From: an uncultured Oscillospiraceae bacterium
Lineage (GTDB): Bacteria > Bacillota > Clostridia > Oscillospirales > Oscillospiraceae
Assembly (NCBI GenBank): GCA_947632175.1
Contig: CANROC010000010.1
Span: forward strand, 62,001 to 126,000
Reading direction: 5' to 3'
Length of the DNA: 64,000 nucleotides
Shown here: positions 24,505-45,697 of the stretch, piece after piece
Layout of the letters: every line of letters begins with the position of its first letter
Numbering within the stretch: the first letter of the stretch is position 1
Translations under genes and position numbers: made by a program
The notes under the pieces: generated by a model
Database searches by the model: none
Told to the model about the DNA's origin: nothing
The model's input: only the letters and a program-made list of their open reading frames with translations

Positions 24505-25221
24505 TCAGCGGTGCTCGGACCACTCCAGGACCTCGCCGTAGTGGGCGCGGCTGATGTAGAGCTCCGAGCCGTCCTCCATCACCAGGCACCGCCGGGAGCG
24601 GTCCATGACGCGCACGTAGGCGGTGTTCACCAGCTCGCTTTGGTGGATGCGCAGGAAGGGCGGGGAGGGCAGCTGCCTTGCAGCCTCGTCCAGCTTGCCG
24701 ATCATGCGAAAGGACGCGCCGGAGGCGGTGAAGACGTCCAGGTACACCCGCTCGCTACGGATGTGGGTAATGGCGCGCGTGGGGAGGCAGTAGCGCCGGT
24801 CCTTGCCGCTCCAGCGGAAGAGGCGGCCGGCGGACTCGATCCGGTCGGTGAGCTCCTCCAGAAGACGCTCCCAGGCCGCCTCGCTTTCCGGCTCCGGGTT
24901 ATAAGCCACGGGGCGGGCGGAGAGGAGGGGCGTCAGGTCCTGGGGCGGGCCGTAGTAGACCAGGAGGCAGTCGGGGTTGCCCTCGCAGATGAGCCGCCCC
25001 GCCGCGCGGGAGCTCTCCCCCATCCCGGCGTTGACCAGGGCGACCAAGGTGTCCGTGATGAGCCGGGGGATCTGGTCCTCCTGCCCGGCGCGGACCACCC
25101 AGTCCACCCGCAGGTCCACGTCCCGGCGGGCGGCGAAGCTCCGCGCCGCCCCGCGTATGACGGCGCGGATGTTCTCGTCCGGCTCGTAGACCAGGACCGT
25201 CAGTCTCAGGGGCCGTTCCAT
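24505..25221 (-). CDS. LytTR DNA-binding protein with degenerate receiver
   Basis: A 238-aa protein whose C-terminal half (about 140-235) is a LytTR DNA-binding domain (YCLPTRAITHIRSERVYLDV, then FLRIHQSELVNTAYV). The N-terminal half resembles a receiver fold (LRLTVLVYEPDENIRAVIRG) but lacks the phosphoacceptor position: the third strand reads CLLVYYGPP instead of an Asp-ending strand. It is the last gene of the leftward Hsp70/ATPase array, overlapping the preceding stop by one base (TGATG). It may autoregulate the array or respond to a partner rather than to phosphorylation. Confidence 0.85.
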   Translation of the reverse strand: MERPLRLTVLVYEPDENIRAVIRGAARSFAARRDVDLRVDWVVRAGQEDQIPRLITDTLVALVNAGMGESSRAAGRLICEGNPDCLLVYYGPPQDLTPLLSARPVAYNPEPESEAAWERLLEELTDRIESAGRLFRWSGKDRRYCLPTRAITHIRSERVYLDVFTASGASFRMIGKLDEAARQLPSPPFLRIHQSELVNTAYVRVMDRSRRCLVMEDGSELYISRAHYGEVLEWSEHR

Positions 25222-25685
25222 CAGTCCTGCCCGGTGAGCGGGGCGAGGAGCTCCCACTGGTCCGGCTCCAGGACGGACTGCAGGCGGGCGTTGTAGGCCG
25301 CGACGTCGGCCTTGCCTGTCTTCTCCCACTGGGCAAGGAGCTCATCGCCCTGGGCGACCAGCTCCCGCAGGGCCTGGGCCCGGCCGGCGCGCTCCTCCGG
25401 CGCGGGATTGGGCAGGAGACGCGTGGTCCCCTCGTAGGGGCCGTCGAATTTCAGGTTGACGATGGAGATGGGCCTTGCCTGGGGGAAGGCGATCTCCAGC
25501 CGCAGCTCCGGGGCCCAGATCTCCAGGCCCTCGGGCCGGACGGCGGCGCGGTGGCAGAGGATGTGGGCGCACAGCACGCCGCGCTTAACGGAAAAGGCGG
25601 GGTAGAGCATGGTGAGGTCTACCGGCAGCATGGAGCGGCAGACGGGGTTTTGCTGGATCTTTCTCATAAATTCCTGAAGTGTCAC
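25221..25685 (-). CDS. Uncharacterised 154-aa protein of the Hsp70 array
   Basis: No family recognised. It starts with GTG behind GGAGG. The first 80 residues look like a mixed alpha/beta domain (CRSMLPVDLTMLYPAF, RGVLCAHILCHRAAV, APELRLEIAFPQARPISIV); the last 60 are helical and charged. No signal or membrane segment, so cytosolic. Sandwiched between the C39-like peptidase and the LytTR gene with almost no gaps, it is certainly co-transcribed with them. Confidence 0.75.
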   Translation of the reverse strand: MTLQEFMRKIQQNPVCRSMLPVDLTMLYPAFSVKRGVLCAHILCHRAAVRPEGLEIWAPELRLEIAFPQARPISIVNLKFDGPYEGTTRLLPNPAPEERAGRAQALRELVAQGDELLAQWEKTGKADVAAYNARLQSVLEPDQWELLAPLTGQD

Positions 25686-25699
25686 GGTTTATCCTCCTC

Positions 25700-26533
25700 T
25701 CACTGCCCGTCCGGCCTGTGGGCCACGCACATGTAGCCGCCGCCGGTCATCCAGGCGTCCTCAAAATTTTCCCGTGTCATGGACAGGCCCTGTCCGTTGG
25801 GGATACCGGGGTCATTGACGATGACCCGGGGATTCTCGGGGTCAGAGTTGTCGATGCCCAGGACCTCCACCATGTGGTTGGCGGAATACGCCGGGTACCC
25901 GTCGGCCCACTCGGTGGTCATGGCCATGTTCTGAACGCTCACCAGCACCCGGTCGCCGTTGGCGGTGGCCTCCAGCAGGTCATTGAAATCCCCCGCCGTC
26001 TTGGTGGTCACGTCGATGCCGTAGGACATGAGGAGATTCCCCACGTCCGCCATGGGCGTGCCCAGCTCCTCATACCAGCCCATCTCGGAGGCAAGCTCGA
26101 TGAGGTCCTGCTCCGTGACCGGGGCGTCCGTATACTCGCTGATGATGAAGTGCTGGCTGGCGATGGCGCAGGAGTAGGGCTCCAGCTGCTCGTGCCACTG
26201 GGCGGTCCCCTCCTCGATGTTCTCCTGGAAGGCCTCCTTGTCGAAGTCGTTGGCCTTCTCCTCATCGTCGTCGATGCCCAGGAAGTCCTTGACGGTGTCC
26301 CAGGCGTCCTCCAGGCCGTCGCGGACCTTGTCGATGAGCTCCCGGACCACGCCCTTTCCGTCGTCCTGCAGCTCCTTGAGGTTCTCCAGCGCCTCCCGGG
26401 TGATGCTCTCCTGGGAGGGGGTCTGGGCCTCCTCGATGTTTTTCCGAATCTCGTCGTTCAGAAGCTCATTCTGCTGGTTGATCGCCTGGTTTTCCAGGTC
26501 CTCATTGCGTTCCATGCCCTCATAGGGATTCAT
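25700..26533 (-). CDS. C39-like papain-fold peptidase
   Basis: A 277-aa protein with an acidic, helical N-terminal part (1-110) and a C-terminal Peptidase_C39_2-like domain. The probable nucleophile is Cys122 in PYSCAIASQHFI, with His220 in NHMVEVLGID and Asn240-Asp241 in VIVNDPG. Repeated N/Q/E-rich coil (ENQAINQQNELLNDEIRKNI) precedes it. No signal peptide, so the protease would act inside the cell, unlike C39 bacteriocin-processing transporters. It lies between the one-TM protein (14-bp overlap) and the 154-aa gene. A role as effector or processing protease of the array is inference. Confidence 0.78.
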   Translation of the reverse strand: MNPYEGMERNEDLENQAINQQNELLNDEIRKNIEEAQTPSQESITREALENLKELQDDGKGVVRELIDKVRDGLEDAWDTVKDFLGIDDDEEKANDFDKEAFQENIEEGTAQWHEQLEPYSCAIASQHFIISEYTDAPVTEQDLIELASEMGWYEELGTPMADVGNLLMSYGIDVTTKTAGDFNDLLEATANGDRVLVSVQNMAMTTEWADGYPAYSANHMVEVLGIDNSDPENPRVIVNDPGIPNGQGLSMTRENFEDAWMTGGGYMCVAHRPDGQ

Positions 26534-27080
26534 GCTGTGTTCCTCCTTTCATAATGACCCCCTGCTCCACGATCTCTCCCTTCGCCGTCCAGCAGGGTTT
26601 GACGGCGTTGTAGGTCTCCCCTTCCACGGGCGCGCCGGCGCCCAGGTACACATAGGCTTTCCGGAGAGACGCCTCATAGACGACGGGGCCAGGCTCGCCA
26701 CGGACGATGCCGGCCTGGGCGATGAGCTTCAGAAGAAGCCTGAGCTTCTCCCGGTACGCCTCCTCGGGCAGGTCCACGGCGCCCTCAAAAAGCCGGGCGA
26801 AGGCGGCGCGGTACTCGTCCTCCTCCGGGAGGCGCGCGGTCCTCTCGCACCACTCCTTCAGCGTGTCCCGGTCGGTGACCTCCTCCCGGTCCAGGATCTG
26901 GCACAGCCCCTCGTAGAGCCCCTCGTAGAGCTTGGCGTGGCGGGCGATGCCCTCGGCGGCGGTCTTCTCCGGGCCGGAGCCCTTGCGGCGGCGCACCAGC
27001 GCCGCGATCACCGCCACGGCGGTGAGGGCCAGCTCCACGCCGGCAACGATGAGCTGTGCTTTGACGGATGTAAGCTTCAC
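26520..27080 (-). CDS. One-TM protein with possible GrpE-like C-terminus
   Basis: A 186-aa protein with an N-terminal membrane helix (about 8-28, QLIVAGVELALTAVAVIAAL) and stop-transfer RRRKG, so the rest is cytosolic. A helical region (40-140) is followed by a short beta-rich tail (YVYLGAGAPVEGETYNAVKP, then WTAKGEIVEQGVIM) that is reminiscent of the C-terminal beta-domain of the nucleotide exchange factor GrpE. Given six Hsp70-like genes upstream, an exchange-factor role is attractive but rests on a weak pattern. GTG start behind AAAGGAGG; overlaps the peptidase gene by 14 bp. Confidence 0.7.
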   Translation of the reverse strand: MKLTSVKAQLIVAGVELALTAVAVIAALVRRRKGSGPEKTAAEGIARHAKLYEGLYEGLCQILDREEVTDRDTLKEWCERTARLPEEDEYRAAFARLFEGAVDLPEEAYREKLRLLLKLIAQAGIVRGEPGPVVYEASLRKAYVYLGAGAPVEGETYNAVKPCWTAKGEIVEQGVIMKGGTQHESL

Positions 27081-27098
27081 GGTGATTCCTCCTTTCTG

Positions 27099-29768: not shown

Positions 29769-29795
29769 GGATGTCGCTCCTTCTTACTCTAGGGC

Positions 29796-30425
29796 TTACA
29801 TAGCCGCTTCGTGCCTGGCCGCCTCGGTCTGCATCTCCAGGAGCTTCTCCACGATGCCCCTGCTGGTTTCCACCACTCTCTGGGCGGCCAGGATGCTGCC
29901 GCCGTTCTCGATGGTCTTCTGCAGGCTCTCCTCGGCCCTTTCCAGGGACCTCTTGGCCTCCTCGATCTTGAAGTCCAGCTCCTTCACCGAGGGCCCCACG
30001 TAGATGTCCTTGTCCAGGGAGGGCGCGGGCTCGTTGTCCTTGGCAAGATCGGCCAGCTTCATGATGGTGGCGTAGGTGTCCTTGGTGATGGTCTGCGAGA
30101 AGTCATAGCCGCTTTCGTTGTCCCGGGTCAGGCGCGGGATGTCCCGGGTCCCCTCCTGGGCGTCCCCGGCGTCCTCCGCCCCGCTCTCGCCGTCCGAATC
30201 CTTGGGGCCCACGTAGAAGACGGCGTCGGGCAGGTGCAGGGGGTCGCTCCGGTCGGCGTTCTTCGCCGCCTCCGCCTCCGCCTGATCGGTGGTGAAGCGG
30301 ATCTTCGGCATGAGGTCGGTGTTCCGCGCCTCCAGATCGGCGAGGTTGAATCCCATTCCCATCGTCTCCTTCATCTGCATCGTTTCTTCGGGCATCTCGG
30401 TCTTCTCAATGTCTTCCAGTCCCAT
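29796..30425 (-). CDS. Coiled-coil protein with MGLED N-terminus
   Basis: A 209-aa acidic protein of no recognised family. Long C-terminal coiled coil (about 145-205: ELDFKIEEAKRSLERAEESL, then RGIVEKLLEMQTEA). The middle is acidic and probably disordered, with a repeated short motif (AVFYVGPKD near 90 and DIYVGPSVKE near 143). It begins MGLEDIEKTEMPEE, sharing the MGLED start with the 81-aa gene product at 43.6 kb. AAGGAGG precedes the ATG; it lies 27 bp before the HerA-type gene. A scaffold or adaptor role is a guess. Confidence 0.72.
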   Translation of the reverse strand: MGLEDIEKTEMPEETMQMKETMGMGFNLADLEARNTDLMPKIRFTTDQAEAEAAKNADRSDPLHLPDAVFYVGPKDSDGESGAEDAGDAQEGTRDIPRLTRDNESGYDFSQTITKDTYATIMKLADLAKDNEPAPSLDKDIYVGPSVKELDFKIEEAKRSLERAEESLQKTIENGGSILAAQRVVETSRGIVEKLLEMQTEAARHEAAM

Positions 30426-30523
30426 GGTGTGACCTCCTTAAAAGATTTTATGGTTTTATTATACACATCTTTTTCCCCCGTGGGAAATTTTTTTATTTTT
30501 AGCGGGCGAAACGGTATTTTTGG
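30426..30523 (-). promoter_or_regulatory. Gap with conserved junction element and a -10-like box
   Basis: Reading leftward, the Hsp70 stop merges into TTGACCAAAAATACCGTTTC (junction element, about 30527-30493). A small GGGAAA..TTTCCC hairpin and a TATAAT at 30463-30458 without a good -35 box follow. A weak internal promoter for the 209-aa and ATPase genes is possible. Confidence 0.4.
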
Positions 30524-32818
30524 TCAATCCATCCCCATCAGCCCCCGCACATGGGCGCGCAGGGCCAGGAGGAAATCGATGGGCTCTGAAAATCTCTCTC
30601 CTGTGATGCGCGTATTGATCGACCAGTCAGTAAACCAGATGCCACGCAAACTCACCGCAAACTGATCAAATGAGAATTTTGCATCGGCAAATTCTTCCCA
30701 GCTCACATATTCTCTTGCGCTCAACCTTTCATGCGCGTAAATCCCTTTGGCGGTAAATGCCCATCCGACCTTTCCAAAATTAGAATTGAAATAGGCGTTC
30801 TTTATCCTCGCCAGAAGTATCTCGCTGCTTGCCGGTATTCCGAGAGAAGTACGGAATATTGATTCTTTGGCGGATGTAAAGGAATGATCATCCAACATAC
30901 TTTTATATTTTTCAATGAAATGGCTGATGTTAGCCGCGCGAGAATAGTATGGCGTTTTGTCAGCATCGAAAAGATTTGATCCCCAGAGCAGATCGCCTCT
31001 GAGCTTCCGTTGAAGCACCGCTAAAAAGCCAGCCAAAGGGCCAACCGCATCACCGCAATGGAACACTTTTGCATCCAGATTAAACGATGTTGGGAAAAGA
31101 TACAGGCTCCCGTTAATAAAATTGTCCCAAGGTACATTTACCGATTTTTCGCGGGAACTAACGGTCCCAAATTTCTCCCCAAACACTTCGGAAAAGGGGT
31201 CAAACTTTTCGTGGGAACTAACGGTCAAAAATTTCTCCTGAAATACTACGGAAAAGGGGGCAAACTCATTGGGAATCCATCGGATCATCTCCGGGGAATC
31301 GCTCCGCAGCTTGACTGCACCATCTCGATTGAAGATTTCCAGCCAATCTTTTGCAAAGTGGCACGCGGTGTGATAGGGGGTATCCTCACTCTCCTGCGTT
31401 CTCTGCGATAGAATTTCTGTTGAGTTATTTGTTTTTTCCTCCTCCGCCTTTTTGATGGTGTCAGTACCCCGCTTGATGACCTCGCGGTGATGGGGGGTAT
31501 AGGCGTAGGTGGTGTTCGCCTCATTCACGTATCTCGCGGCTTCCTTCTTCGTCTCCCACTCCGTTTTCAGAGGCAGGAGGCTGTAGACGAGGCCGAGGGC
31601 TACGGTTTCCTGGGGGTTGGAGAGGCGGAGGACGCGGGATTTTTCTGTCTGGGCGCGTTTTAACGCGGGATGTGTGAGGCCGGGGAGTGTGCCGTTGAGG
31701 AGGGCTTCGGTGAAGTACCAGGCGCTGTGGCCGCCGGTGAGGACGACCAGGTCTACGCCGTTCTCGGCGATGGCGGGCTCCAGCTCAGATGCCTTGTCCA
31801 GGCAGCCGGTGACGAGGGATTTGAAGTCGTTGAGCTTGTCATGAAGAAGCTCTTCCAGCTTGGCGCGGTCGATGGAGGGGAAGGGCTGTTTTTTTGGCAA
31901 AAGCATCATGTAGCCGGAGAGGAAGCCGCAGCTGTCCACCAGGTTTCCCTCGTTAAGGCGCGGCGAGACGACCGTCTCTTTCCAGGGCTTCACCGACGCC
32001 GTGCCGCAGACGAGCTGTCTGGCCATGGCGGGGTCCAGGCCGCAGGAGGTCATGTAATCCGTGAGATAATCTTCCAAAAGCCTGTCCACCTCCCGGCCGC
32101 CGAAGGTGGGCGCGCCGGCACTCTCCGGCCAGGTGGAGACGATCTCGTTCTTGATCTGCTCGGCGCGGATGACGCCGCTGGTCCCCGCGTCCACGGTATA
32201 CCGGCAGACGGCCAGGTCCGTCGTCCCCGCGCCCATGTCCACAAGCAGCATGTAACCGGGTTCCCCGGCGCGGAGGAGTCCCTTGGCGCTCACGTCGTTC
32301 ATGTTCTGCGTCAGGCTGGCGTACAAGGCAGCGGAGGGCTCGTCCATGGCGCTGACGTCGGGGAAGCCGGCTTTCCGGGCGGCCTCGACCATGAAGCTCC
32401 GCGTTTCCTCCGTCCACTTGGCGGGGAAGCTGACGATTGTCTTCTCCTGATCCCCCGCCTCGCCAAGATTGCTGCGCTGGTGGTCGTACCAGCGGTAGAG
32501 GTATTTGAAAAATTCCTCCGTCAGGGCCTTTGCCTGGGCGCTTTTGGCCCCGTCGGGATTTTCCAGGTCCATCTTGAACTCCCGGAAGACCTGGGTCTCC
32601 GGACCCGCGTCCTCCGCCGGGCGGCCGCAGGTGTATGTACCGTCGGCGTTGCGCCGGACCACGGTGTGCGCCTTGTTGTCCCCCTGGCCGTCCCCGAAGG
32701 TCACCGCCGAGCTGAGAAACGCGCCTCCCAGCGGCTCCCCGTCCTTGTACCGCTTCACGCAGACTACGGAGGTGCTGGTGCCGAAGTCGATGCCTACGAG
32801 CCGTGTCACATCCGCCAA
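30524..32818 (-). CDS. Hsp70-like ATPase with variable C-terminus (paralogue 6)
   Basis: About 764 aa. The Hsp70/actin-type nucleotide-binding domain (1-420) has phosphate-1 GIDFGTSTS, phosphate-2 DMGAGTTDL near 197 and adenosine motif LTGGHS near 363. Instead of an Hsp70 substrate-binding domain there is a lysine/glutamate linker and an AT-richer C-terminal region of about 340 aa with two related units: one ending VNVPWDNFINGSL, one with GKVGWAFTAKGIYAHERLSA and YVSWEEFAD. Between them is a 20-residue tandem duplication. Start taken as TTG 32818: AAAGG then has 10-base spacing, whereas the upstream in-frame GTG would have 1. Cytosolic; substrate unknown. Confidence 0.88.
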   Translation of the reverse strand: MADVTRLVGIDFGTSTSVVCVKRYKDGEPLGGAFLSSAVTFGDGQGDNKAHTVVRRNADGTYTCGRPAEDAGPETQVFREFKMDLENPDGAKSAQAKALTEEFFKYLYRWYDHQRSNLGEAGDQEKTIVSFPAKWTEETRSFMVEAARKAGFPDVSAMDEPSAALYASLTQNMNDVSAKGLLRAGEPGYMLLVDMGAGTTDLAVCRYTVDAGTSGVIRAEQIKNEIVSTWPESAGAPTFGGREVDRLLEDYLTDYMTSCGLDPAMARQLVCGTASVKPWKETVVSPRLNEGNLVDSCGFLSGYMMLLPKKQPFPSIDRAKLEELLHDKLNDFKSLVTGCLDKASELEPAIAENGVDLVVLTGGHSAWYFTEALLNGTLPGLTHPALKRAQTEKSRVLRLSNPQETVALGLVYSLLPLKTEWETKKEAARYVNEANTTYAYTPHHREVIKRGTDTIKKAEEEKTNNSTEILSQRTQESEDTPYHTACHFAKDWLEIFNRDGAVKLRSDSPEMIRWIPNEFAPFSVVFQEKFLTVSSHEKFDPFSEVFGEKFGTVSSREKSVNVPWDNFINGSLYLFPTSFNLDAKVFHCGDAVGPLAGFLAVLQRKLRGDLLWGSNLFDADKTPYYSRAANISHFIEKYKSMLDDHSFTSAKESIFRTSLGIPASSEILLARIKNAYFNSNFGKVGWAFTAKGIYAHERLSAREYVSWEEFADAKFSFDQFAVSLRGIWFTDWSINTRITGERFSEPIDFLLALRAHVRGLMGMD

Positions 32819-32868
32819 TCTCTTCACGCCTTTCCTTTTGTGTTTTCACCGAGCGAGACGGGTTTTCT

Positions 32869-35799: not shown

Positions 35800-35898
35800 T
35801 GTCTTCACGCCTTTCTTATGGTTGTGCTCCCATTTTATCCGCCGGGACGCCTTTTGCGGAGTTTTTTGTATTTTTGGCGGACGAAACGGGATTTTTGG

Positions 35899-38319
35899 TC
35901 AATCCATCCCCATCAGCCCCCGCACATAGGTGCGCAGGGCCAGGAAGAAATCCAGGAGCTCCTCGTTTTCCTCTTCTTTTTTGTATGTGACAATGTTTGT
36001 AAGCCCGTACACGCCTGAGAATGGACCGGCAAACGACTCCCAACTGTAAGCTTTGGAATTGGTGCCGTGAGCAAGTATGCCATCTCGGGTAATGGCCCAT
36101 CCATCCTTGCCGAAATTCATTTTGAAGAGCGTAGAATCCATTCTGGCAAGCAGGATCGGAACGTCGTCGGGGATACGCAGATACAAGCGAAAAGTGGTTT
36201 CTCTTTCTCTGGAGAAGTCAAAGCCAAGATCCCAAGCCTTGCGGTTTTGAACGACAAAGTCCTCAATATCCTTCTTGCGGCTGTCCGGCAAATGTCCGAC
36301 AGCCCCCGCTTTTTCAGGTCCCGTTGGCTTCCAAATTGCCTTGCCCCGGAGCCGAATATGTAGTTCTTTCAAAAAATACACAAACGGGCTGAGGGGCTTT
36401 GATTCTACCAATTTACAGTCATTCAAAAAGCAGCCATTAAAGAATCTCAGATTGCCGTTTTGAAAATGGCTCCAGGGCACATTTTCATCTGTTTCCAGAT
36501 AGTTGAATTTCATCCCTTCAGGCTTGAGCGTCACGATCAAGTTGCCTACGTCTTGTTTCCATAGGAGCACGCCCCGTTCTGGGGAGGACGGCTTCCAGCC
36601 CGGCTCAAAATCAATTCCCATCCAGTCATCGACAAAGCGCAGAGCCTCCTGATACAATGGCTCATTGGCAACCCAGCATATCGGCTTGATCCGCTTGTAT
36701 AGCTTCTCCATATGGGTTCTAATATACCATCTGTTTGGACCGTAAAACCCCATCACATCGCACAGCAATATGATTTTCTCCCATGGCTGTGTATACCCTT
36801 GCTCGACATTATCCCCCGTATAATAGAACAGGCCATCTTTATGCGCGGTCAGAAAGACACATTTTTGCCCCGATCGATCAATGCAAATCTGGTCCCGGCC
36901 AGGACGCGTGAGCGTTAACCCCTGCGATGCATCAGGCGTGTTGGCCTCGATGATCCATTCGTCAAAAAACTCTATGGCGGCCCGGACAATTGGGTCGTCT
37001 GCCGGCTCCCCGGCCTGGTCCGTCTCTTTCCCGGCCGGCTGCGGGGCGGGGTGTTCGGGCGTCCGGGGCATTTGCAGAGGCAGGAGGCTGTACACGAGGC
37101 CGAGGGCCACCGTCTCCTGGGGGTTGGAGAGGCGCAGAACGCGGGTTTTCTCTGTCTGGGCCCGCTGCAGGGCCGGGTGGGTAAGCCCGGGGATCGTGCC
37201 GTTTAAAAGCTCCTCGGTGAAGTACCAGGCGCTGTGGCCGCCGGTGAGGACGACCAGGTCCACGCCGTTCTCGGCGATGGCGGGCTCCAGCTCAGACGCC
37301 TTGTCGAGGCAGCCGGTGACGAGGGATTTGAAGTCTTCGAGCTTATCCCGAAGAAGCTCTTCCAGCTTGGCGCGGTCGATGGACGGGAAGGGCTGTTTTT
37401 TGGGGAGAAGCATCATGTAGCCGGAGAGGAAGCCGCAGCTGTCCACAATGTTCCCCTCGTTGAGCCTTGGGGAAACTACCGTTTCCTTCCACGGCTTGAC
37501 GGAGGCGGTGCCGCAGACGAGCTGTCTGGCCATGGCGGGGTCCAGGCCGCAGGAGGTCATGTAGTCGGTCAAATAGTCCTCCAAGAGCCTGTCCACTTCC
37601 CTGCCGCCGAAAGTAGGCGCGCCGGCGGCCTCCGGCCAGGTGGAGACGATCTCGTTCTTGATCTGCTCGGCTCGTATGACCCCTCCGGCCTCCGCGTCCA
37701 CGGTATACCGGCAGACGGCCAGGTCCGTGGTGCCCGCGCCCATGTCCACAAGGAGCATGTAGCCCGGTTCCCCGGCGCGGAGGAGGCCCATGGCGCTCAC
37801 GTCGTTCATCTTGCGGGTGAGGGTGGCGTAGAGGGCGGCGGAGGGCTCGTCCATCACGCCCACATTGGGGAAGCCCGCGTCCCGCGCCGCCTGGGCCATG
37901 AAGGCCCGCGTCTCCTCCGACCATTTCGCCGGGAAGCTGACAACGGTTTTTTCCTCGTCCCCGGCCTCGCCCATGTCGCTGCGCTGGTGGTCGTACCAGC
38001 GGTAGAGATACTTGAAGAACGCCTCCGTCAGCGTCCGGGCCTGGGCGCGCTTCTCCCCGTCGGGGCTCTCCAGGTCCATCTTGAACTCCCGGAACACCTG
38101 GGCCGCGTCGTCCCCGGCCTCCCGGCCGCAGGTATACGAGCCGTCGGCGTTGCGCCGCACCGCGGTCACCGCCTTGTTGTCCCCCTGCCCGTCGCCAAAG
38201 GTCACCGACGAGCTGAGAAACGCGCCTCCCAGCGGTTCCCCGTCCTTGTACCTCTTCACGCACACCACGGAGGTGCTGGTGCCGAAGTCGATGCCAATGA
38301 GTCGTGTTACGTCCGCCAT
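35899..38319 (-). CDS. Hsp70-like ATPase with variable C-terminus (paralogue 4)
   Basis: About 806 aa. N-terminal Hsp70-type ATPase domain with intact GIDFGTSTS, DMGAGTTDL and LTGGHS. The C-terminal 370 aa appear to hold three repeats of the unit seen once or twice in the paralogues: one around LTAHKDGLFYYTG and PWEKIILL, one around VTLKPEGMKFNYL and VPWSHFQNGNL, and one around GKDGWAITRDGILAHG and YSWESFAG. That part is visibly AT-richer than the ATPase part. It ends RGLMGMD, as does paralogue 6. The ATG at 38319 has AAAGG 10 bases upstream. Confidence 0.88.
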   Translation of the reverse strand: MADVTRLIGIDFGTSTSVVCVKRYKDGEPLGGAFLSSSVTFGDGQGDNKAVTAVRRNADGSYTCGREAGDDAAQVFREFKMDLESPDGEKRAQARTLTEAFFKYLYRWYDHQRSDMGEAGDEEKTVVSFPAKWSEETRAFMAQAARDAGFPNVGVMDEPSAALYATLTRKMNDVSAMGLLRAGEPGYMLLVDMGAGTTDLAVCRYTVDAEAGGVIRAEQIKNEIVSTWPEAAGAPTFGGREVDRLLEDYLTDYMTSCGLDPAMARQLVCGTASVKPWKETVVSPRLNEGNIVDSCGFLSGYMMLLPKKQPFPSIDRAKLEELLRDKLEDFKSLVTGCLDKASELEPAIAENGVDLVVLTGGHSAWYFTEELLNGTIPGLTHPALQRAQTEKTRVLRLSNPQETVALGLVYSLLPLQMPRTPEHPAPQPAGKETDQAGEPADDPIVRAAIEFFDEWIIEANTPDASQGLTLTRPGRDQICIDRSGQKCVFLTAHKDGLFYYTGDNVEQGYTQPWEKIILLCDVMGFYGPNRWYIRTHMEKLYKRIKPICWVANEPLYQEALRFVDDWMGIDFEPGWKPSSPERGVLLWKQDVGNLIVTLKPEGMKFNYLETDENVPWSHFQNGNLRFFNGCFLNDCKLVESKPLSPFVYFLKELHIRLRGKAIWKPTGPEKAGAVGHLPDSRKKDIEDFVVQNRKAWDLGFDFSRERETTFRLYLRIPDDVPILLARMDSTLFKMNFGKDGWAITRDGILAHGTNSKAYSWESFAGPFSGVYGLTNIVTYKKEEENEELLDFFLALRTYVRGLMGMD

Positions 38320-38371
38320 AGTTTTCACGCCTTTCTTTTTGTGTTTTTACCGGGCGAAATGGGTTTTTCGG

Positions 38372-41302
38372 TCAGTTCCCGCCCCGGAGCGCCAGGGACT
38401 CCTTTTGCAGATACGCCTGGAGACGGATGATGAGGTCGTCCACCTCTCTAGCTTCTGTGATTTTGATGCCATTCAAGCTGTATGTGGTCAAATTCGCCAA
38501 GGTCACTCCGTGGCTGTCTTTTAAATAGAGTGTTGCGTTCTTATACAGCACATTGTTCAGGAACGTCTGCCAGGACACAAAAACAGGATCTGTGGAGCGG
38601 GCGTAGATGCCCCGGTTTGTGATGGCCCAGCCGTCTTTCCCCAGGTTCATGCGCAGCAGCGCCGAGGTATGGGCCAAATAAATCTCCGCCTCAGGGGGAA
38701 TATTCAATCTCGCTCTGAAAAGCGGCGTCCTTTCCGGTACCTGGAACAGCATCGGCCAGGGCTTGCGGTTTTCCTGGATAAACCTCTTTGCCTTCTCCAG
38801 CAGGCTGTCGTCCCAGACATAGGTCACGTTGGCCTGCTTGCGCGGCTCCTGGCCGCCAGGGGACGCTTCGCCCTGAAGCTCCTTTTGCAGTCCCTGGAAA
38901 AACCTCAACAGCTGGTTCAGCATCGCGCCGTCCGCGATAGCCGCGAGGAGCTCGTCCGCTCTCCCCTCCCGCTGTGATTCCACATGGAAGCCGTTCCGGC
39001 GCAGTGAGCCGGAGAGGAAGTCTGTCCAGCTCACCTCCTTTCGAAACCACTCCGTTTCCCTGTTCTTGTTCTCAAGGACCATGCCCTCTTCTGTGGCGGT
39101 GACGGAGTAATCTCTGGTGGGGGAATACGTCCACCGGATGGTGCGGACGACCGGGCTGGCGACCGTCCAGCCGAATAAGGCCTGGGCGTTGGTGCGGACC
39201 CAGTTTTGAAAATACCGATCGGCCTGATCCGCCTTGCCGGTGGGCGGCGCGTCATCCGGGCTCTCGCGCTTCGTCTCCTCCACCTTTTTGATGGTGTCCG
39301 TGAGCTGTTGGATGGCCTCGCGGTGATGGGCGGCGGTGTCCGCCTCCCGCTCCATTTTCGATAACAGGAGGCTGTCGAGGTCGTTGGGCGCGATCTTCCC
39401 GAGGCGCAGGACGCGGCTCTTTTCCTTTTGGGCGCGTTTCAGGGCCGGGTGGGTGAGGCCGGGGAGGGCGCCGTTGATGAGGTCCTCCGTGAAATACCAG
39501 ACGCTGTTGCCGCCGGTGAGGACCACCAGGTCTACGCCGTTCTCGGCGATGGCTGGCTCAATGGCGGACGCCTTATCGAGGCACCCGGCGACGAGGGACT
39601 TGAAGTCGTCGAGCTTATCTTTGAGAAGCTCCACCAGCTTGGCCCGGTCGATGGTGGGGAAAGGCTGTTTCTTGGGGAGAAGCATCATGTAGCCGGAGAG
39701 AAAGCCGCAGTTGTCCACCGGGTTCCCCTCGTTGAGGCGCGGGGAGACAACGGTTTCTTTCCACGGCTTGACGGAGTCCGTGCCGCAGACGAACTTTCTG
39801 GCCATGGCGGGGTCCAGGCCGCAGGAGGTCATGTAGTCGGTCAGGTAGCCCTCCAGGAGCCGGTCCACGTCCGCGCCGCCGAAGGTGGGCCCGCCGGCAC
39901 TTTCCGGCCAGGTGCAGACGGCCTCGCATTTGGTCTGACCGTCTCCCGCGCCCGCGATGTACCGGCGCACCGTCAGGTCCGTGGTCCTCGCGCCCATATC
40001 CAGGAGGAGCATATACTTCGCGGTCTTCTTCGGCGTCCGGGGCATTTGCAGAGGCAAAAGGCTGTAGACGAGGCCGAGGGCTACGGTTTCCTGGGGGTTG
40101 GAGAGGCGGAGGACGCGGGATTTCTCCGTCTGGGCGCGTTTTAAGGCCGGGTGGGCGATGCCTGGGATCGTGCCGTTGAGGAGGGCTTCGGTGAAGTACC
40201 AGGCGCTGTGGCCGCCGGTGAGGACGACCAGGTCTACGCCGTTTTCGGCGATGGCGGGCTCGATTTCCGCGGCCTTGTCGAGACAGCCGGTGACGAGGGA
40301 TTTGAAGTCTTCGAGCTTGTCATGAAGAAGCTCTTCCAGCTTGTTTCGGTCAATGGACGGGAACGGCTGCTTCTTGGGCAGGAGCATCATGTAGCCGGAG
40401 AGGAAGCCGCAGCTGTCCACCAGGTTTCCCTCGTTAAGGCGCGGGGAGACTACCGTCTCTTTCCAGGGCTTGACAGACGCCGTGCCGCAGACGAGCTGTC
40501 TGGCCATGGCGGGGTCCAGGCCGCAGGAGGTCATGTAGTCAGTGAGGTAGTCTTCCAAAAGCCGGTCCACCTCCCGGCCGCCGAAGGTGGGCGCGCCGGC
40601 GGCCTCCGGCCAGGTGGAGACGATCTCATTCTTGATCTGCTCGGCGCGGATGAACCCGCCGGCCCCGGCGTCCACGGTGTAGCGGCAGACGGCCAGGTCC
40701 GTGGTGCCCGCGCCCATGTCGACGAGGAGCATGTAACCCGGCTCTCCGGCGCGGAGTAACCCCTTGGCGCTCACGTCGTTCATGTTCTGCGTCAGGGTGG
40801 CGTACAAGGCGGCGGAGGGCTCGTCCATGGCGCTGACGTTGGGGAAGCCGGCTTTTTTGGCGGTCTCGACCATGAAGGCCCGCGTGCCCTCTGACCATTT
40901 CGCGGGGAAGCTGACGACGGTCTTCTCCTGATCGCCGGCTTCTCCCAAATTGCTGCGCTGGTGGTCGTACCAGCGGTAGAGGTATTTGAAAAACTCCTCC
41001 GTCAGGGCCTTCGCCTGGGCGCTTTTGGCCTTGTCCAGGCTCTCCAGGTCCATTTTAAACTCCCGGAAAATTTGTGCCTCCGGGTCCGCGTCCTCCGCCG
41101 GACGGCCGCAAGTATACGAGCCGTCGGCGTTGAGCCGCGCCACCGTATACGCCCTGGTGTCCCCCTGCCCGTCGCCAAAGGTCACCGCCGAGCTCTGGAA
41201 CGCGCCCCCAATGGGCTCCCCGTCCTTGTACCGCTTCACGCACACCACGGAGGTGCTGGTGCCGAAATCGATGCCGATGAGTCGTGTTACGTCTGATGCC
41301 AT
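38372..41302 (-). CDS. Hsp70-like ATPase with half-duplicated NBD (paralogue 3)
   Basis: About 976 aa and organised exactly like the gene at 32869-35799: complete Hsp70-type ATPase domain, a degenerate second copy of its C-terminal half (DMGARTTDL) and the two-unit C-terminal region. The two genes are nearly identical over about 38803-40138 (offset 5500 bp) but differ in the first ATPase domain and in the last 90 residues (GKDGWAITNRGIYARSTDP), so the shared tract looks like gene conversion rather than simple gene duplication. The ATG at 41302 (MASDVTRLIG) has AAAGGTGA upstream. Confidence 0.88.
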   Translation of the reverse strand: MASDVTRLIGIDFGTSTSVVCVKRYKDGEPIGGAFQSSAVTFGDGQGDTRAYTVARLNADGSYTCGRPAEDADPEAQIFREFKMDLESLDKAKSAQAKALTEEFFKYLYRWYDHQRSNLGEAGDQEKTVVSFPAKWSEGTRAFMVETAKKAGFPNVSAMDEPSAALYATLTQNMNDVSAKGLLRAGEPGYMLLVDMGAGTTDLAVCRYTVDAGAGGFIRAEQIKNEIVSTWPEAAGAPTFGGREVDRLLEDYLTDYMTSCGLDPAMARQLVCGTASVKPWKETVVSPRLNEGNLVDSCGFLSGYMMLLPKKQPFPSIDRNKLEELLHDKLEDFKSLVTGCLDKAAEIEPAIAENGVDLVVLTGGHSAWYFTEALLNGTIPGIAHPALKRAQTEKSRVLRLSNPQETVALGLVYSLLPLQMPRTPKKTAKYMLLLDMGARTTDLTVRRYIAGAGDGQTKCEAVCTWPESAGGPTFGGADVDRLLEGYLTDYMTSCGLDPAMARKFVCGTDSVKPWKETVVSPRLNEGNPVDNCGFLSGYMMLLPKKQPFPTIDRAKLVELLKDKLDDFKSLVAGCLDKASAIEPAIAENGVDLVVLTGGNSVWYFTEDLINGALPGLTHPALKRAQKEKSRVLRLGKIAPNDLDSLLLSKMEREADTAAHHREAIQQLTDTIKKVEETKRESPDDAPPTGKADQADRYFQNWVRTNAQALFGWTVASPVVRTIRWTYSPTRDYSVTATEEGMVLENKNRETEWFRKEVSWTDFLSGSLRRNGFHVESQREGRADELLAAIADGAMLNQLLRFFQGLQKELQGEASPGGQEPRKQANVTYVWDDSLLEKAKRFIQENRKPWPMLFQVPERTPLFRARLNIPPEAEIYLAHTSALLRMNLGKDGWAITNRGIYARSTDPVFVSWQTFLNNVLYKNATLYLKDSHGVTLANLTTYSLNGIKITEAREVDDLIIRLQAYLQKESLALRGGN

Positions 41303-41320
41303 AGGATTCACCTTTCTTTC

Positions 41321-43534
41321 TCAAGATGCGGCAAGCTCGCGGATATAGTCGCGAAGAGCCAGCAGAAAGTCCACAAGCTCCGTCCAAGCCTCCACGTTAG
41401 CAAAACGGTGTGGCATATCCAAGCTGAGCTCCAGCGGATAGTAGGCAGTAGTCGAGAAAAGATAGTATAAACGCATCCCTTCCCCGCTGATGAGGTTTTC
41501 CCAATTGATTTTACGGCTGCTTCCCAGAAATCCCACACTGCCCTCATATATTCCGTCCTGGGTCAAGGCCCACCCCTTTTTGGCCGGATTTGCGTCAGGG
41601 CCGTGCATGTAGGCCAGCAGGATCTTGGAATCTCCTGGAATTTTCAGATTCTGGCGGAATTGCGCCAGCAGCGGCGCGTCGTATTTGAAAAGGGCGGAAC
41701 GCGGCGCGTTGGCCGCAATGAACTCGCCGATCTTCCGGTTAAGCGAAGGGCTGACGCCGCCGCTGATCACGGGTATATCATGTGTCGGCGGATGCCACCG
41801 GCCCTTTCCCTGAAGCCGGCGTTGGAGGAGCAAAATGAACGACGGAACTTCAATAAACCACGGTTGATCGGTAAATACAAGCGATGAATCATAAAGCACC
41901 ATTTCAGCGGCCCCGTTCCCTCCCTTTTTCTTCAGGCAAAGGGTATTCGGACGGCCTTTGGGCCAGAAGAGCTTACCTGAAACAAAATCATTCCAGCCCA
42001 ACGAAATGTCCGGCATCCGCCCGCGCTTTCCGTTTTCTACGAATTGGATCCAGTCCTCGGTCATCGTGATGGAATAGGTATATTTTGGGAACGTTTCATC
42101 GTGCCAATGCATGGTCGTCATGACATCGTTCCATTCCTTCTTGTAAAAGGTGATCTTCTCCCGTACCCAGTCGTCCACAAAGCGTTTGGCCTCTTGGAAG
42201 AACTCGTCGTTTGTTTTGGGAGGCTCCGGCGCGGGCGCTGGGGCGGCTTTCTTCGGCTTCGGAGGCGTTTCCTTTTCCATTTTCAGCGGCAGCAGGCTGT
42301 AGACGAGGCCGAGGGAGACGGTTTCCTGGGGGTTGGGGAGGCGGAGGACGCGGTCGGGCTCGGACCGGACCTGTTTCAGGGCCGGATGGGTGAGGCCCGG
42401 CATGGCGCCGGTGAGGAGGTCCTTGGTGAAATACCAGGAGCTGTGCCCGCCGGTGAGGACCACCAGGTCCACGCCCCGCTCGGCGATGGCGGGGTCAAGC
42501 TGCGCGGCCCTGTCCAGGCAGCCGGTGATGAGGGACTTGAAGTCCTCCAGCTTGTCATGGACAAGCGCCTCGAACCCCGCCCGGTCAATGGCGGGGAAGG
42601 GCATTTTCCGGGGCAGGAGCATCATGTAGCCCGCCAAAAAGCCGCAGGAGGCGACGCTCTTGTCCTCCGCAAGCAGGGCCGAGACGGAGTGCTCCTTCCA
42701 GGGGCGCACCGCTCCCGTCCCCCGCACCAGCTGGCCCGCCATAGACGCGTCCAGCCCGCAGGCGCACAGGTAGTCGGTGAGATAGCCGGCCAGGAGCTCG
42801 TCCACCTCCCGGCCGCCGAAGGTGGGGGCGTCGGCGCTCTCGGGCCAGGTGGCCACGATCTCGTTGCGGATCCGGCCCACCTGGACGATGCCGTCCGGGG
42901 CGCCGTCCACGCTGTAACGGCACACCGCCAGGTCCGTGGTACCCGCGCCCATGTCGATGAGGAGCATGGTCCCCGGCTCGCCGGGGCGCAGATAGCCCAT
43001 GGCTTTCACGTCGTTCATCTTGTTCACCAGTGTGGCGCTCAGGGCCGCGCTGGCCTCGTCCATGCTGGTGACCTCCGGAAAGCCGGCGTCCTTCGCCGCC
43101 TGTACCATGAAGTCCCGGGTTTCGGCGCTCCACTTGACGGGGAAGCTGACCACGGTCCGCTCCCGGTCCCCCGCCTCGCCCAGGTTGCTGCGCTGGTGGT
43201 CATACCAGCGGTAGAGGTATTTGAAGAACTCCCCGGTGAGGTCCCGGGCCTGGGCACGTTTCGCCTCGTCGGGGCTTTCCAGGTCCATCTTGAACTCCCG
43301 GTAGACGGCGCTCTCCGGCAGGGGCTCCTCGGCCTCGCGGCCGCAGGTGACCTTCCCGTCCCCCTCCCGGCGCACCACCGTCAGCGCCCGGATGTCGTCC
43401 TGACCGTTGCCGAAGGTCACCCCGGCGCTGAGCACCGCCCCGCCGATGGGCTTCCCTCCCTCATATCTCTTGACCCGCACCAGAGAGGTGCTGGTGCCGA
43501 AGTCGATGCCGATGAGCCGCGTCACGTCCGCCAT
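41321..43534 (-). CDS. Hsp70-like ATPase, most divergent paralogue (2)
   Basis: About 737 aa. The ATPase domain keeps GIDFGTSTS, DMGAGTTDL and LTGGHS, but many positions differ from the other five (KRYEGGKPIGGAVLS; MLLPRKMPFPAIDRAGF). It is followed by a Pro/Ala/Lys linker (TPPKPKKAAPAPAPEP) and a 270-aa C-terminal region with the two-unit plan: YTYSITMTEDWIQFVENG with SLGWNDFVSGKLF, and KKGWALTQDGIYEGSVG with KINWENLISG. The C-terminal part is AT-richer. It sits between the 81-aa gene and paralogue 3 with short gaps. Confidence 0.88.
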   Translation of the reverse strand: MADVTRLIGIDFGTSTSLVRVKRYEGGKPIGGAVLSAGVTFGNGQDDIRALTVVRREGDGKVTCGREAEEPLPESAVYREFKMDLESPDEAKRAQARDLTGEFFKYLYRWYDHQRSNLGEAGDRERTVVSFPVKWSAETRDFMVQAAKDAGFPEVTSMDEASAALSATLVNKMNDVKAMGYLRPGEPGTMLLIDMGAGTTDLAVCRYSVDGAPDGIVQVGRIRNEIVATWPESADAPTFGGREVDELLAGYLTDYLCACGLDASMAGQLVRGTGAVRPWKEHSVSALLAEDKSVASCGFLAGYMMLLPRKMPFPAIDRAGFEALVHDKLEDFKSLITGCLDRAAQLDPAIAERGVDLVVLTGGHSSWYFTKDLLTGAMPGLTHPALKQVRSEPDRVLRLPNPQETVSLGLVYSLLPLKMEKETPPKPKKAAPAPAPEPPKTNDEFFQEAKRFVDDWVREKITFYKKEWNDVMTTMHWHDETFPKYTYSITMTEDWIQFVENGKRGRMPDISLGWNDFVSGKLFWPKGRPNTLCLKKKGGNGAAEMVLYDSSLVFTDQPWFIEVPSFILLLQRRLQGKGRWHPPTHDIPVISGGVSPSLNRKIGEFIAANAPRSALFKYDAPLLAQFRQNLKIPGDSKILLAYMHGPDANPAKKGWALTQDGIYEGSVGFLGSSRKINWENLISGEGMRLYYLFSTTAYYPLELSLDMPHRFANVEAWTELVDFLLALRDYIRELAAS

Positions 43535-43555
43535 ATTCCCCACGCCTTTCTGTCT

Positions 43556-43801
43556 TTATTTTTGTTCCCGCTCCAGGACCTTTTTGTAGTCCCGCAGTCT
43601 GTGCTCCGCGTCGATCTCCCGCCCGTGCTCGATGGCGCTCTCCAGCTTATGCCGGGCGATGCGCGCGTCAAAGGACTCCCCCAGGGTGGGCTCCGCGTCC
43701 CGCTCCAGCTTCGGGGGAAACTCCGCCGGTCTGTCCGTCTGTGCCTCCCGGAGCTCAGGCGGCTGTTCCCGTGTTTCCAATAAAAGGTCTTCCAATCCCA
43801 T
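43556..43801 (-). CDS. Small MGLED-start protein of the Hsp70 array
   Basis: An 81-aa, highly charged, soluble protein (MGLEDLLLETREQPPELREA), helical in its second half (DARIARHKLESAIEHGREID). No family recognised. It has AGGAGG seven bases before the ATG. The first five residues match those of the 209-aa coiled-coil protein downstream, which suggests a common docking peptide. Confidence 0.65.
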   Translation of the reverse strand: MGLEDLLLETREQPPELREAQTDRPAEFPPKLERDAEPTLGESFDARIARHKLESAIEHGREIDAEHRLRDYKKVLEREQK

Positions 43802-43838
43802 ATATGTACCTCCTTATTTGATTCCCGGGCCCGTCAGT

Positions 43839-45545
43839 TCAGCGCAGGCGGCTTGCCACGCCCAGCACCTTCGGGCCCTCCTTCACCTTGATGGCGTTAA
43901 AGCCTCCCTCGGCCATGACCTCAAAGGTGAGCTCCATGTCCCGCTCGATATCCAGCACAATGGGATACTGGATGTTTTTCAGGAGATTGAACCAGAAAAC
44001 GAACGCGTATCGGCCCGGCTCCAGGGTCACCTGGCAGGACTCGCCGTTGGAGAACTCATACGTCCCCAGCGGGTCGATGCGGAGGCTCAGCCTGCCGATA
44101 GCGCCCATCAGCTGGCGTCTCCTGGTGAGGACCAGGGTCACCCTGTTCCCGGCGGGCCGGACCCCGTTCAGGATGTCTCGGAGATCGGCCGCCGTATTCC
44201 CGGCGGTCCGCGCCCCATCCTCCGGCTCGGTTTGGGTCTCGGTGGCGGCGCCGACCACCTCCTGCGTCTTTTGCGGCGCTTCCCGCTCCATACGCAGCGG
44301 CAGGAGGCTGTACACGAGGCCCAGGGCCACGGTCTCCTGGGGGTTGGAGAGGCGCAGGACGCGACTTCTTTCCTCCTGGGCCCGTTTCAGGGCGGGATGA
44401 GTGAGGCCGGGGATCGTACCGTTGAGGAGCTCCTCCGTGAAGTACCAGGCGCTGTGGCCGCCGGTGAGGACCACCAGGTCCACGCCGTTTTCGGCGATGG
44501 CGGGCTCGATTTCCGCCGCCTTATCGAGACAGCCGGTGACGAGGGATTTGAAGTCCTCCAGCTTATCTGCAAGAAGCTCCTCCAGCTTGGTCCGGTCGAT
44601 AGCCGGGAACGGCTGCTTTTGGGGCAGGAGCATCATGTAACCGGAGAGGAAGCCGCAGCTGTCTACGATGTTTCCCCCGTTGAGGCGCGGCGAGACCACC
44701 GTCTCCTTCCAAGGCTTGACGGAGGCGGTGCCGCAGACGAGCTGTCCGGCCATGGCGGGGTCAAGGCCGCAGGAGGTCATGTAGTCCGTGAGGCAGCTTT
44801 CCAGCAGCCGGTCCACCTCCCGGCCTCCGAAGGTGGGCGCGCCGGCGGTCTCCGGCCAGGTGGAGATGATCTCGTTCTTGACCTGGTCGGCGCGGATGAC
44901 CCCGCCGGCCTCCGCGTCCACGGTGTAGCGGCACACCGCCAGGTCCGTGGTGCCGGCTCCCATGTCCACAAGCAGCATGTAGCCCGGTTCACCGGCCCGC
45001 AGGAGCCCCTTGGCGCTTACGTCGTTCATGTTCTGTGTCAGGGTGGCGTACAGCGCCGCCGAGGGCTCGTCCATGGCGCTGACATTGGGGAAGCCGGCCT
45101 TTTGGGCGGCCTCGACCATAAAGGCCCGCGTCTCCTCCGTCCACTTGGCCGGGAAGCTGACGACGGTCCGTTCCTCGTCCCCGGCCTCGCCCAGGTTGCT
45201 GCGCTGGTGGTCGTACCAGAGGTAGAGGTATTTGAAAAACTCCTCCGTCAGGGCCTTCGCCTGGGCGCGCTTGGCCTCGTCCGGGCTTTCCAGGTCCATT
45301 TTAAATTCCCGGAACACCTGGCTCCCCGGGTTCACCTCCTCCGCCGCGCGGCCGCAGGTGTATGTACCGTCCGCGTTGAGACGCGCCACGGTGTGCGCCC
45401 TGTTGTCGCCCTGGCCGTCCCCGAAGGTCACCGATGAGCTGAGGAACGCCCCGCCAAGGGGCTCCCCGTCCTTGTACCGCTTCACGCACACCACCGAAGT
45501 GCTGGTGCCGAAGTCGATGCCGATGAGTCGTGTCACGTCCGCCAT
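43839..45545 (-). CDS. Hsp70-like ATPase with short beta-type C-terminus (paralogue 1)
   Basis: About 568 aa, first gene of the array. Complete Hsp70-type ATPase domain (GIDFGTSTS, DMGAGTTDL, LTGGHS). After an Ala/Thr/Glu linker the C-terminal 110 residues form a beta-rich domain (VTLVLTRRRQLMGAIGRLSL, LEPGRYAFVFWFNLLK, RDMELTFEVMAEGG) unlike the units of the other paralogues. The ATG at 45545 has GGGAGG ten bases upstream. Being promoter-proximal and lacking the variable units, it may be the core chaperone-like ATPase of the set. Confidence 0.88.
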   Translation of the reverse strand: MADVTRLIGIDFGTSTSVVCVKRYKDGEPLGGAFLSSSVTFGDGQGDNRAHTVARLNADGTYTCGRAAEEVNPGSQVFREFKMDLESPDEAKRAQAKALTEEFFKYLYLWYDHQRSNLGEAGDEERTVVSFPAKWTEETRAFMVEAAQKAGFPNVSAMDEPSAALYATLTQNMNDVSAKGLLRAGEPGYMLLVDMGAGTTDLAVCRYTVDAEAGGVIRADQVKNEIISTWPETAGAPTFGGREVDRLLESCLTDYMTSCGLDPAMAGQLVCGTASVKPWKETVVSPRLNGGNIVDSCGFLSGYMMLLPQKQPFPAIDRTKLEELLADKLEDFKSLVTGCLDKAAEIEPAIAENGVDLVVLTGGHSAWYFTEELLNGTIPGLTHPALKRAQEERSRVLRLSNPQETVALGLVYSLLPLRMEREAPQKTQEVVGAATETQTEPEDGARTAGNTAADLRDILNGVRPAGNRVTLVLTRRRQLMGAIGRLSLRIDPLGTYEFSNGESCQVTLEPGRYAFVFWFNLLKNIQYPIVLDIERDMELTFEVMAEGGFNAIKVKEGPKVLGVASRLR

Positions 45546-45668
45546 ACCCAATATTCCTCCCTGTGCTTTTTTTCATTTTACACGCCGGCGCGCCCTTTGC
45601 GGCGAAATATGTATTTTTAGCCGGCGAAACGTAATTTTTGGTCAAGCCGAAAAAAATCAATCACATCT

Positions 45669-45697
45669 ATTATAGTCAAAACCGCCAGTAAATGCAA
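45669..45697 (-). promoter_or_regulatory. Promoter of the Hsp70/ATPase array
   Basis: On the minus strand TTGCAT (45697-45692), 17 bp, TATAAT (45674-45669), with a leader of about 115 nt before the first start codon. The leader contains a copy of the junction element found between the Hsp70 genes (TTGACCAAAAATTACGTTTC, about 45645-45609). Confidence 0.6.

Follow-up and report, generated by a model that had tools for sequence, protein, structure and literature searches.

A gut-bacterial operon of Hsp70-like ATPases and a VirB4-like motor that looks like an undescribed toxin-deployment machine

What does an operon build that joins six Hsp70-like ATPases to a motor ATPase, a papain-fold protein and a DNA-binding regulator? 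We addressed this question for 13 genes in a 64,000-nucleotide stretch of contig CANROC010000010.1 (the window; contig C10 in our numbering) from an uncultured Oscillospiraceae bacterium, a gut bacterium with a genome of 3.54 megabases. In reading order the genes encode the Hsp70-like ATPase H1, the small acidic protein MGLEDA, the Hsp70-like ATPases H2, H3, H4, H5 and H6, a second small acidic protein (MGLEDB), the motor ATPase, a protein with one transmembrane segment (TM186), a C39-like protein, a protein of 154 amino acids (g154) and a LytTR regulator. The operon looks like an undescribed toxin-deployment machine; with a probability of roughly 0.6, its products deploy effectors of the polymorphic type, neighbouring bacteria being the likeliest targets. 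This is most simply read as a toxin-deployment module in which the nucleoside triphosphatase (NTPase) partner can be either of two kinds. Across genera and phyla, the VirB4-like motor occurs together with an Hsp70-like ATPase or, elsewhere, with a dynamin-like GTPase, and many loci of either kind have a small toxin-like gene and then a partner gene after the motor. In the window, the C39-like protein takes the place at which related operons have exchangeable genes of toxin and immunity type.

The motor, its NTPase partners and the genes that follow it

Scanning genome contigs with the motor ATPase gave 21 loci besides the window, in metagenome-assembled genomes of Oscillospiraceae and other Clostridia, [Clostridium] citroniae, Diplocloster modestus, Diplocloster agilis, a metagenome-assembled genome labelled Prevotellaceae, Synergistaceae and Gelidibacter. 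Hsp70-like genes lie next to the motor in 19 of the 21, on the same strand and within 9 kilobases (kb), and outside the window there are one or two of them per locus. The two exceptions are L084 (loci, genomes and contigs carry our own labels L, G and C), which has a dynamin-like gene, and L085, whose sequence begins at the ATPase. The order ATPase, one-transmembrane protein, C39-like protein, g154, LytTR recurs in relatives. The operon is real, and its members co-occur across relatives; an earlier note, made from the letters of the window, had said that a system would be supported by a neighbourhood kept across genomes in which the number of Hsp70-like genes varies, and this is what was found.

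A wider set of 63 loci, profiled on the same strand and within 9 kb, comprised the window, the 21 scan loci and 41 further genome stretches. Hsp70-like genes were detected in 23 of these loci, dynamin-like genes in 19 and both together in none. The 63 loci are not independent (genomes G555, G903, G995 and G294, for example, hold two each; L080 and L081 come from genomes G216 and G294), and four of the window's six Hsp70-like genes fall inside the 9 kb. The Hsp70-like call in L145 is weak (E 5e-26), and the dynamin call in L053 (E 2e-30) may be a coiled-coil match. By near matching, the dynamin-type locus was found in 1 of 5426 E. coli genomes. Between two Hsp70-like genes of L087 (3652-7900) lie a protein of 891 amino acids that looks by eye like a GTPase and one of 511 amino acids. 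WYL regulators stand beside some dynamin-type loci (L054 15702-16715, L192 639-1565, L194 1436-2416), compatible with a link to defence.

The best Pfam family of the motor is DUF87, and a sequence search of solved structures returned HerA-type ATPases. Its predicted structure matches the VirB4/TrwK fold across the N- and C-terminal domains, spanning residues 53-889, and is nearer to VirB4 than to HerA proteins of defence systems. The best NCBIfam match, the serine-rich protein family NF033849, scored 98.9 bits, far under the cut-off of 650. Hydropathy plots revealed no segment kept across the motor family. A search of viral contigs with a single ATPase sequence confirmed no relative; two human faecal records labelled bacteriophage, MT837341.1 and MT836703.1, encode relatives of the motor.

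The position after the motor was analysed in 45 downstream proteins (Pfam, E up to 0.001), taken as the first same-strand gene after the ATPase, except that L140 and L142 contributed their second gene, L122 and L123 contributed both, and L074 contributed the gene that follows TM186; L120, which has no such gene, and the C39 loci were left out. Colicin-DNase matched 9 of these proteins, WHH 9, Endonuclea_NS_2 3, LHH 2, Gln_amidase 2, GH-E 1 and Peptidase_Mx1 1 (counts per family, which may overlap). The rest also holds leucine-rich repeat (LRR), immunoglobulin-like and unmatched proteins; several of the unmatched ones contain HExxH, and those of L055 and L114 resemble PoNe nucleases by eye. A control set of 45 genes lying no closer than 4 kb to the ATPase gave one match each to Colicin-DNase, PemK and DUF3990, among the 25 of 80 families listed. 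In 29 genes following toxin-like genes, a set picked after seeing which first genes looked toxin-like, SMI1_KNR4 matched 8, DUF6985 4, PoNi_C 2, YezG-like 2 and ankyrin 1 (again per family), and in a number of relatives an immunity-type gene stands directly after the toxin-like gene. The earlier note's suggestion of an effector and a role in conflict gains support from these toxin-like and immunity-like genes at the equivalent place.

In distant relatives of the dynamin type, the gene after the ATPase often encodes a protein of about 180-310 amino acids that has an acidic N-terminus of low complexity and ends in a toxin-like C-terminus. The corresponding gene in Synergistaceae opens with a common N-terminal region, for example KPGKFELPGTQDASDKAATTPGLFDAQE in L085 and L087, and this region joins different C-termini in L082, L083, L085 and L087 (alignment by eye), the arrangement of one N-terminus with varied toxin C-termini seen in polymorphic toxins. 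Each of the four toxin-like genes is then followed by a different small open reading frame (ORF). L082, L083 and L087 are Hsp70-linked, the stretch of L085 is cut at the ATPase, and the toxins of L082 and L083, which had no Pfam match, were named by eye. Hsp70-linked neighbourhoods of Clostridia hold either C39 and g154 or, in L074 and L140, a HExxH protein and a partner of 104 or 114 amino acids, the partners being alike by eye and these two loci having neither C39 nor g154. Pfam matched no known trafficking domain on the window's C39 protein, and there is none among the 20 families found in the 45 downstream proteins. In L052 (3223-3834), L111 (12048-12782) and L191 (9103-9744) the ATPase is followed by similar-looking proteins whose N-terminus is hydrophobic and rich in glycine, candidates for an effector or channel family.

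Thirteen PLSDB plasmid stretches were examined by annotation. The toxin pattern is visible on the following plasmids. E. coli pTW10590_133 and Treponema saccharophilum both carry two dynamin family genes, a hypothetical gene, an ATP-binding or DUF87 gene, an HNH nuclease and SMI1/KNR4. Lactococcus cremoris (plasmid pB26B) has two dynamin genes, two hypotheticals, an ATP-binding protein, an HNH endonuclease and a hypothetical; Exiguobacterium a hypothetical with a weak dynamin-profile match, an ATP-binding protein, HNH and SMI1/KNR4; and Streptomyces clavuligerus a hypothetical, an ATP-binding protein, an ADP-ribosyltransferase and a hypothetical. On the remaining plasmids the annotation names no toxin. 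A gene of Planktothrix annotated as tetratricopeptide repeat (TPR) protein matches the Hsp70-like profile (E 1e-24). Weak matches were found downstream in Acinetobacter (Hsp70-like, E 1e-7) and upstream in Ruminococcus albus (dynamin).

The operon in the window and its Hsp70-like array

The features of the operon are as follows.

45669..45697, minus strand: candidate promoter TTGCAT-17-TATAAT, read from the printed sequence
43839..45551, minus strand: H1, Hsp70-like ATPase, 570 amino acids, C-terminus unlike the remaining five
43556..43801, minus strand: MGLEDA, small acidic protein, 81 amino acids; its family recurs next to Hsp70-like genes in relatives
41321..43543, minus strand: H2, Hsp70-like ATPase, 740 amino acids, most divergent copy
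38372..41311, minus strand: H3, Hsp70-like ATPase, 979 amino acids, with a second, partial ATPase domain
35899..38328, minus strand: H4, Hsp70-like ATPase, 809 amino acids
32869..35808, minus strand: H5, Hsp70-like ATPase, 979 amino acids, 93% DNA identity with H3
30524..32827, minus strand: H6, Hsp70-like ATPase, 767 amino acids, structure predicted
29796..30425, minus strand: MGLEDB, small acidic protein, 209 amino acids
27099..29768, minus strand: VirB4/HerA-type motor ATPase, 889 amino acids, Walker A GSTGSGKT, EEAHNVL motif
26520..27080, minus strand: TM186, one-transmembrane protein, 186 amino acids
25700..26533, minus strand: C39-like papain-fold protein, 277 amino acids, keeps Cys122, His220 and Asn240/Asp241; proposed effector
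25221..25685, minus strand: g154, 154 amino acids, co-occurs with C39; proposed to be an immunity protein or an adaptor specific to C39
24505..25221, minus strand: LytTR DNA-binding regulator, domain by Pfam, start codon picked by eye
24464..24496, minus strand: terminator-like hairpin

The ORF list of the window agrees with the earlier note on 13 genes, all read leftward from 45551 to 24505, and a strong hairpin directly 3' of LytTR, the last gene, matches the terminator it placed at 24.47 kb. Its promoter at 45.67 kb fared less well: TATAAT is present there upstream of H1, but the -35 element is poor and a consensus promoter scan did not report the site. DUF87/HerA (motor), Peptidase_C39_2 and LytTR scored above the Pfam cut-offs and TM186 has a hydrophobic segment, in line with the identities given before; TM186, g154, MGLEDA and MGLEDB had no Pfam match above cut-off.

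Judged by motif, all six Hsp70-like proteins have an intact ATPase domain, as the note had read, and Pfam detected the Hsp70 ATPase part above cut-off in five. The Pfam HSP70 matches stop at profile position 337 of 599 or earlier. In the predicted structure of H6 (predicted local distance difference test score, pLDDT, 76.8), residues 7-421 form the Hsp70 nucleotide-binding fold, and the C-terminal half was barely covered in the fold comparison. The note had given each protein a different C-terminus, which proved wrong, as the C-termini of H2-H6 are mutually homologous; that of H1 matches none of them. H3 and H5 share their 93% DNA identity over 2911 nucleotides, and both have the second partial ATPase domain. 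A search of the host genome with H1 returned array genes only, and ordinary DnaK-type and other Hsp70-family genes sit on other contigs; the array is therefore a local tandem expansion. With six Hsp70-like genes that arose by tandem duplication, the window is the extreme case. A single-sequence H1 search of 300 family genomes gave three weak matches besides the host genome and says little, having missed diverged copies in G216 and G294; an H1 sequence search of solved structures returned nothing useful. The Hsp70-like C-termini of relatives vary by locus, by eye and without profile confirmation: LRR-like in L072 and L079, Sel1/TPR-like in L077, L079 and L082-L087, and RCC1-like in L073. The Hsp70-like proteins of L075 and L080 have, also by eye, a long hydrophobic N-terminal addition.

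C39 was detected in 16 of the 63 loci, g154 in 15 of these 16 and in none of the other 47. Catalytic Cys and His are kept in 16 of 17 C39 proteins, the second L077 copy having neither; this C39-like gene (L077 2779-3435) lies near an intact C39 and two g154-like genes, one identified by eye. LytTR is present in 12 of the 16 C39 loci, two of which, L080 and L081, have it about 3 kb off, beyond opposite-strand genes; two loci of the dynamin type also have it, with weaker scores. The TM186 family occurs in 13 of the 63 loci, every one Hsp70-linked. In the nearest four loci, identity to the window is 88-84% for the motor, 77-61% for C39, 72-69% for g154 and 59-51% for TM186, so that C39 and g154 diverge faster than the motor and slower than TM186. 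Sequence searches of solved structures with C39 and TM186 returned nothing useful. The C-terminus of TM186 has a resemblance to the GrpE beta domain, which prompted the idea that TM186 might be a membrane-anchored GrpE-like exchange factor; the comparison with a GrpE profile gave a probability of only 6% (E 0.006 against that single template). The profile came from 13 ORFs that were picked automatically in 16 GrpE loci, and these loci include at least two, L157 and L162, that seem unlike GrpE.

Upstream of C39 in L080, on the same strand (956-5794; equivalent L047/L048), genes for an RNA ligase, for a protein with HD and AAA_33 domains, for an ADP-ribosylglycohydrolase and for a protein with Sel1 repeats were found; the G294 equivalent is L049/L050, and the RNA ligase group is possibly in the same operon as C39. 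Near the operon, the window holds an ORF of 802 amino acids that has a zinc ribbon and, below cut-off, a PASTA match (48484-50892, minus strand) and, just past the terminator, a Sir2-type sequence (23154-23906, minus strand) and an amidase-like ORF (22519-23157, plus strand), both named by eye.

How the operon might work, and rival explanations

In the proposed machine, the motor would sit at the membrane with TM186 and drive translocation of the effector through a conduit, which we infer. By means of their ATP cycle, and of C-terminal modules that can be exchanged, the Hsp70-like ATPases would bind cargo, hold it unfolded and hand it over, the cargo being the C39-like protein and perhaps the MGLED proteins; six copies could supply capacity or cargo range. 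The C39-like protein would be the window's effector, g154 would shield the producer or escort the effector, and LytTR would set expression of the operon. A number of observations weigh against this proposal. The motor model is moderate (pLDDT 71, predicted template modelling score 0.50), TM186 is the only one of the 13 proteins with a clear hydrophobic segment, no channel protein was matched by Pfam among the 13 genes, and g154 matches no Pfam family. Neither partner was detected by profiles in 21 of the 63 loci, 15 with more than 3 kb upstream and 6 with less than 1 kb. The 45 downstream proteins include ordinary enzymes, one glycoside hydrolase family 2 and one calcineurin-like phosphoesterase. 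Among the plasmids, Anabaena and Planktothrix have an Hsp70-like gene and no named toxin in the annotation, and no toxin is named in Rhodococcus, Embleya, Streptomyces NBC_00105, Photobacterium, Acinetobacter or Ruminococcus albus. Partner exclusion is not absolute beyond the 63 loci, because in Anabaena L184 a gene of the Hsp70 family (profile E 2e-22) is accompanied by a GTPase-domain gene (dynamin-profile E 1e-6). Finally, C39 is kept across its 16 loci and not freely swapped, and therefore a processing protease fits too.

Such a processing role and a role in intracellular defence are the main rivals. As a processing peptidase of the kind found in bacteriocin exporters, the C39-like protein would mature exported MGLED proteins, with LytTR in a peptide-signalling circuit. 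LytTR regulators are typical of peptide circuits, and one is present here; the MGLED proteins are small and acidic and recur in 10 loci, and the C39 proteins of L072 and L079 begin with MGIE, much like MGLED. That C39 peptidases trim leader peptides is described in passages of PMC3482391. We nevertheless consider this role unlikely: Pfam matched no ATP-binding cassette exporter in the operon, the HExxH proteins of L074 and L140 stand near the C39 position, nuclease-like proteins follow the ATPase in Synergistaceae, and one of the two C39 genes of L077 has lost catalytic Cys and His. Intracellular abortive infection, in which the Hsp70-like or dynamin-like NTPases would respond to invasion or to a damaged membrane and act with the motor to free a partner-held toxin, seems improbable to a similar degree. 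WYL regulators, which are common in defence loci, accompany some dynamin-type loci, HerA motors occur in anti-phage complexes, and Hsp70 without its peptide-binding domain is found in NTP-dependent conflict systems (passages of PMC7159879). Yet PADLOC gave distant HerA and mad8 matches for the motor and weak ones for the other operon proteins, and the motor model is nearer to VirB4 than to defence HerA. SUKH, PoNi and YezG-like families, found in relatives, are typical immunity proteins of intercellular toxins.

The earlier note had suggested a sensor array; read as an array for stress response or cargo chaperoning, its six Hsp70-like proteins would sense different ligands. The six intact ATPase domains and the LRR-like, Sel1/TPR-like or RCC1-like C-termini of relatives would suit it, but a single kind of C-terminal domain is shared by five of the six proteins, H3 and H5 are 93% identical in DNA, the copies come from tandem duplication, and profiled relatives have one or two copies. 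We consider a sensor array very unlikely. Hardly any weight is left for a remnant or variant conjugation apparatus around the motor; its fold is VirB4-like and ATPase relatives lie on plasmids, one near a relaxase gene, but by Pfam none of the 13 genes codes for a relaxase, a coupling protein or a channel.

Beyond the window, we tentatively propose a widespread undescribed export machine, in which a stand-alone VirB4-like motor and an Hsp70-like or dynamin-like NTPase might deliver polymorphic toxins. It would operate in Clostridia, Bacilli, Spirochaetes, Synergistaceae, Actinomycetes and Gammaproteobacteria. NTPases of the Hsp70-like type would be chaperones that load cargo at the cost of energy and that evolve through tandem duplication and the exchange of C-terminal modules. 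If true, this would give a function to Hsp70-like ATPases with no evident substrate-binding domain and explain why the annotations 'DUF87', 'dynamin family' and 'HNH endonuclease' stand side by side. Occurrence in harmless, workable hosts, for example on a dairy plasmid of Lactococcus cremoris, makes the proposal directly testable.

Comparison with known systems

With VirB4/TrwK of type IV secretion, the motor shares its predicted fold over both domains. Pfam found no CagE_TrbE_VirB (PF03135) match in the whole host genome and no VirB6-, VirB8- or VirD4-type gene among the 13 genes. In type VIIb secretion (EssC, WXG100), an FtsK/HerA-superfamily motor exports toxins in Bacillota. Passages of PMC3482391 also give a type VII motor of this superfamily in toxin export. 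The operon has a motor of HerA type by Pfam but, unlike type VIIb, no WXG100 match among its 13 genes (Pfam). A conventional type IV or type VII system encoded elsewhere in the genome might serve as the conduit: there are three matches to the coupling-protein family T4SS-DNA_transf (contigs C25 and C3) and six WXG100 matches (contigs C30 and C32; five above cut-off), but nothing ties these to the operon.

The Hsp70-like proteins share the nucleotide-binding domain of Hsp70 chaperones (DnaK). In the NTP-dependent conflict systems described in passages of PMC7159879, an Hsp70 domain without the peptide-binding part adjoins effectors; those systems, however, are centred on GAP1-N2 or other GTPases, some with tubulin parts, whereas Pfam matched no GTPase among the 13 genes and the dynamin-like GTPases linked to the motor family are confined to its other loci. 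The Pfam SrfB profile weakly matches the Hsp70-like proteins, a likeness to the SrfABC operon (PMC6950479), but all scores lie under the 27.1-bit cut-off and there is no other Srf match among the 13 genes. NurA, Sir2 and DUF4297, partners of HerA in defence and repair, had no Pfam match among the 13 genes either. In titles and abstract openings of the papers listed, with subscription papers mostly outside, we found no description of a HerA/VirB4-type ATPase with an Hsp70-like or dynamin-like protein and a polymorphic toxin, and no paper combining a dynamin-like protein with a polymorphic toxin, neither of which proves novelty; a term search of the type IV secretion review PMC12857230 gave no occurrence of Hsp70, dynamin or polymorphic.

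A close parallel is that with polymorphic toxin systems, for which passages of PMC3482391 give papain-like Tox-PL-C39 as a toxin domain and SUKH as an immunity family. Relatives of the operon share with them small toxin-like proteins whose C-terminal domains vary, and in a number of these relatives a gene of immunity type comes next. Unlike in those systems, the toxin gene here follows a VirB4-like ATPase that is partnered by an Hsp70-like or dynamin-like protein, and no known trafficking domain was seen; if our reading is true, toxins would here be deployed by a motor-based system in its own right, whose NTPase partner can be of two interchangeable kinds.

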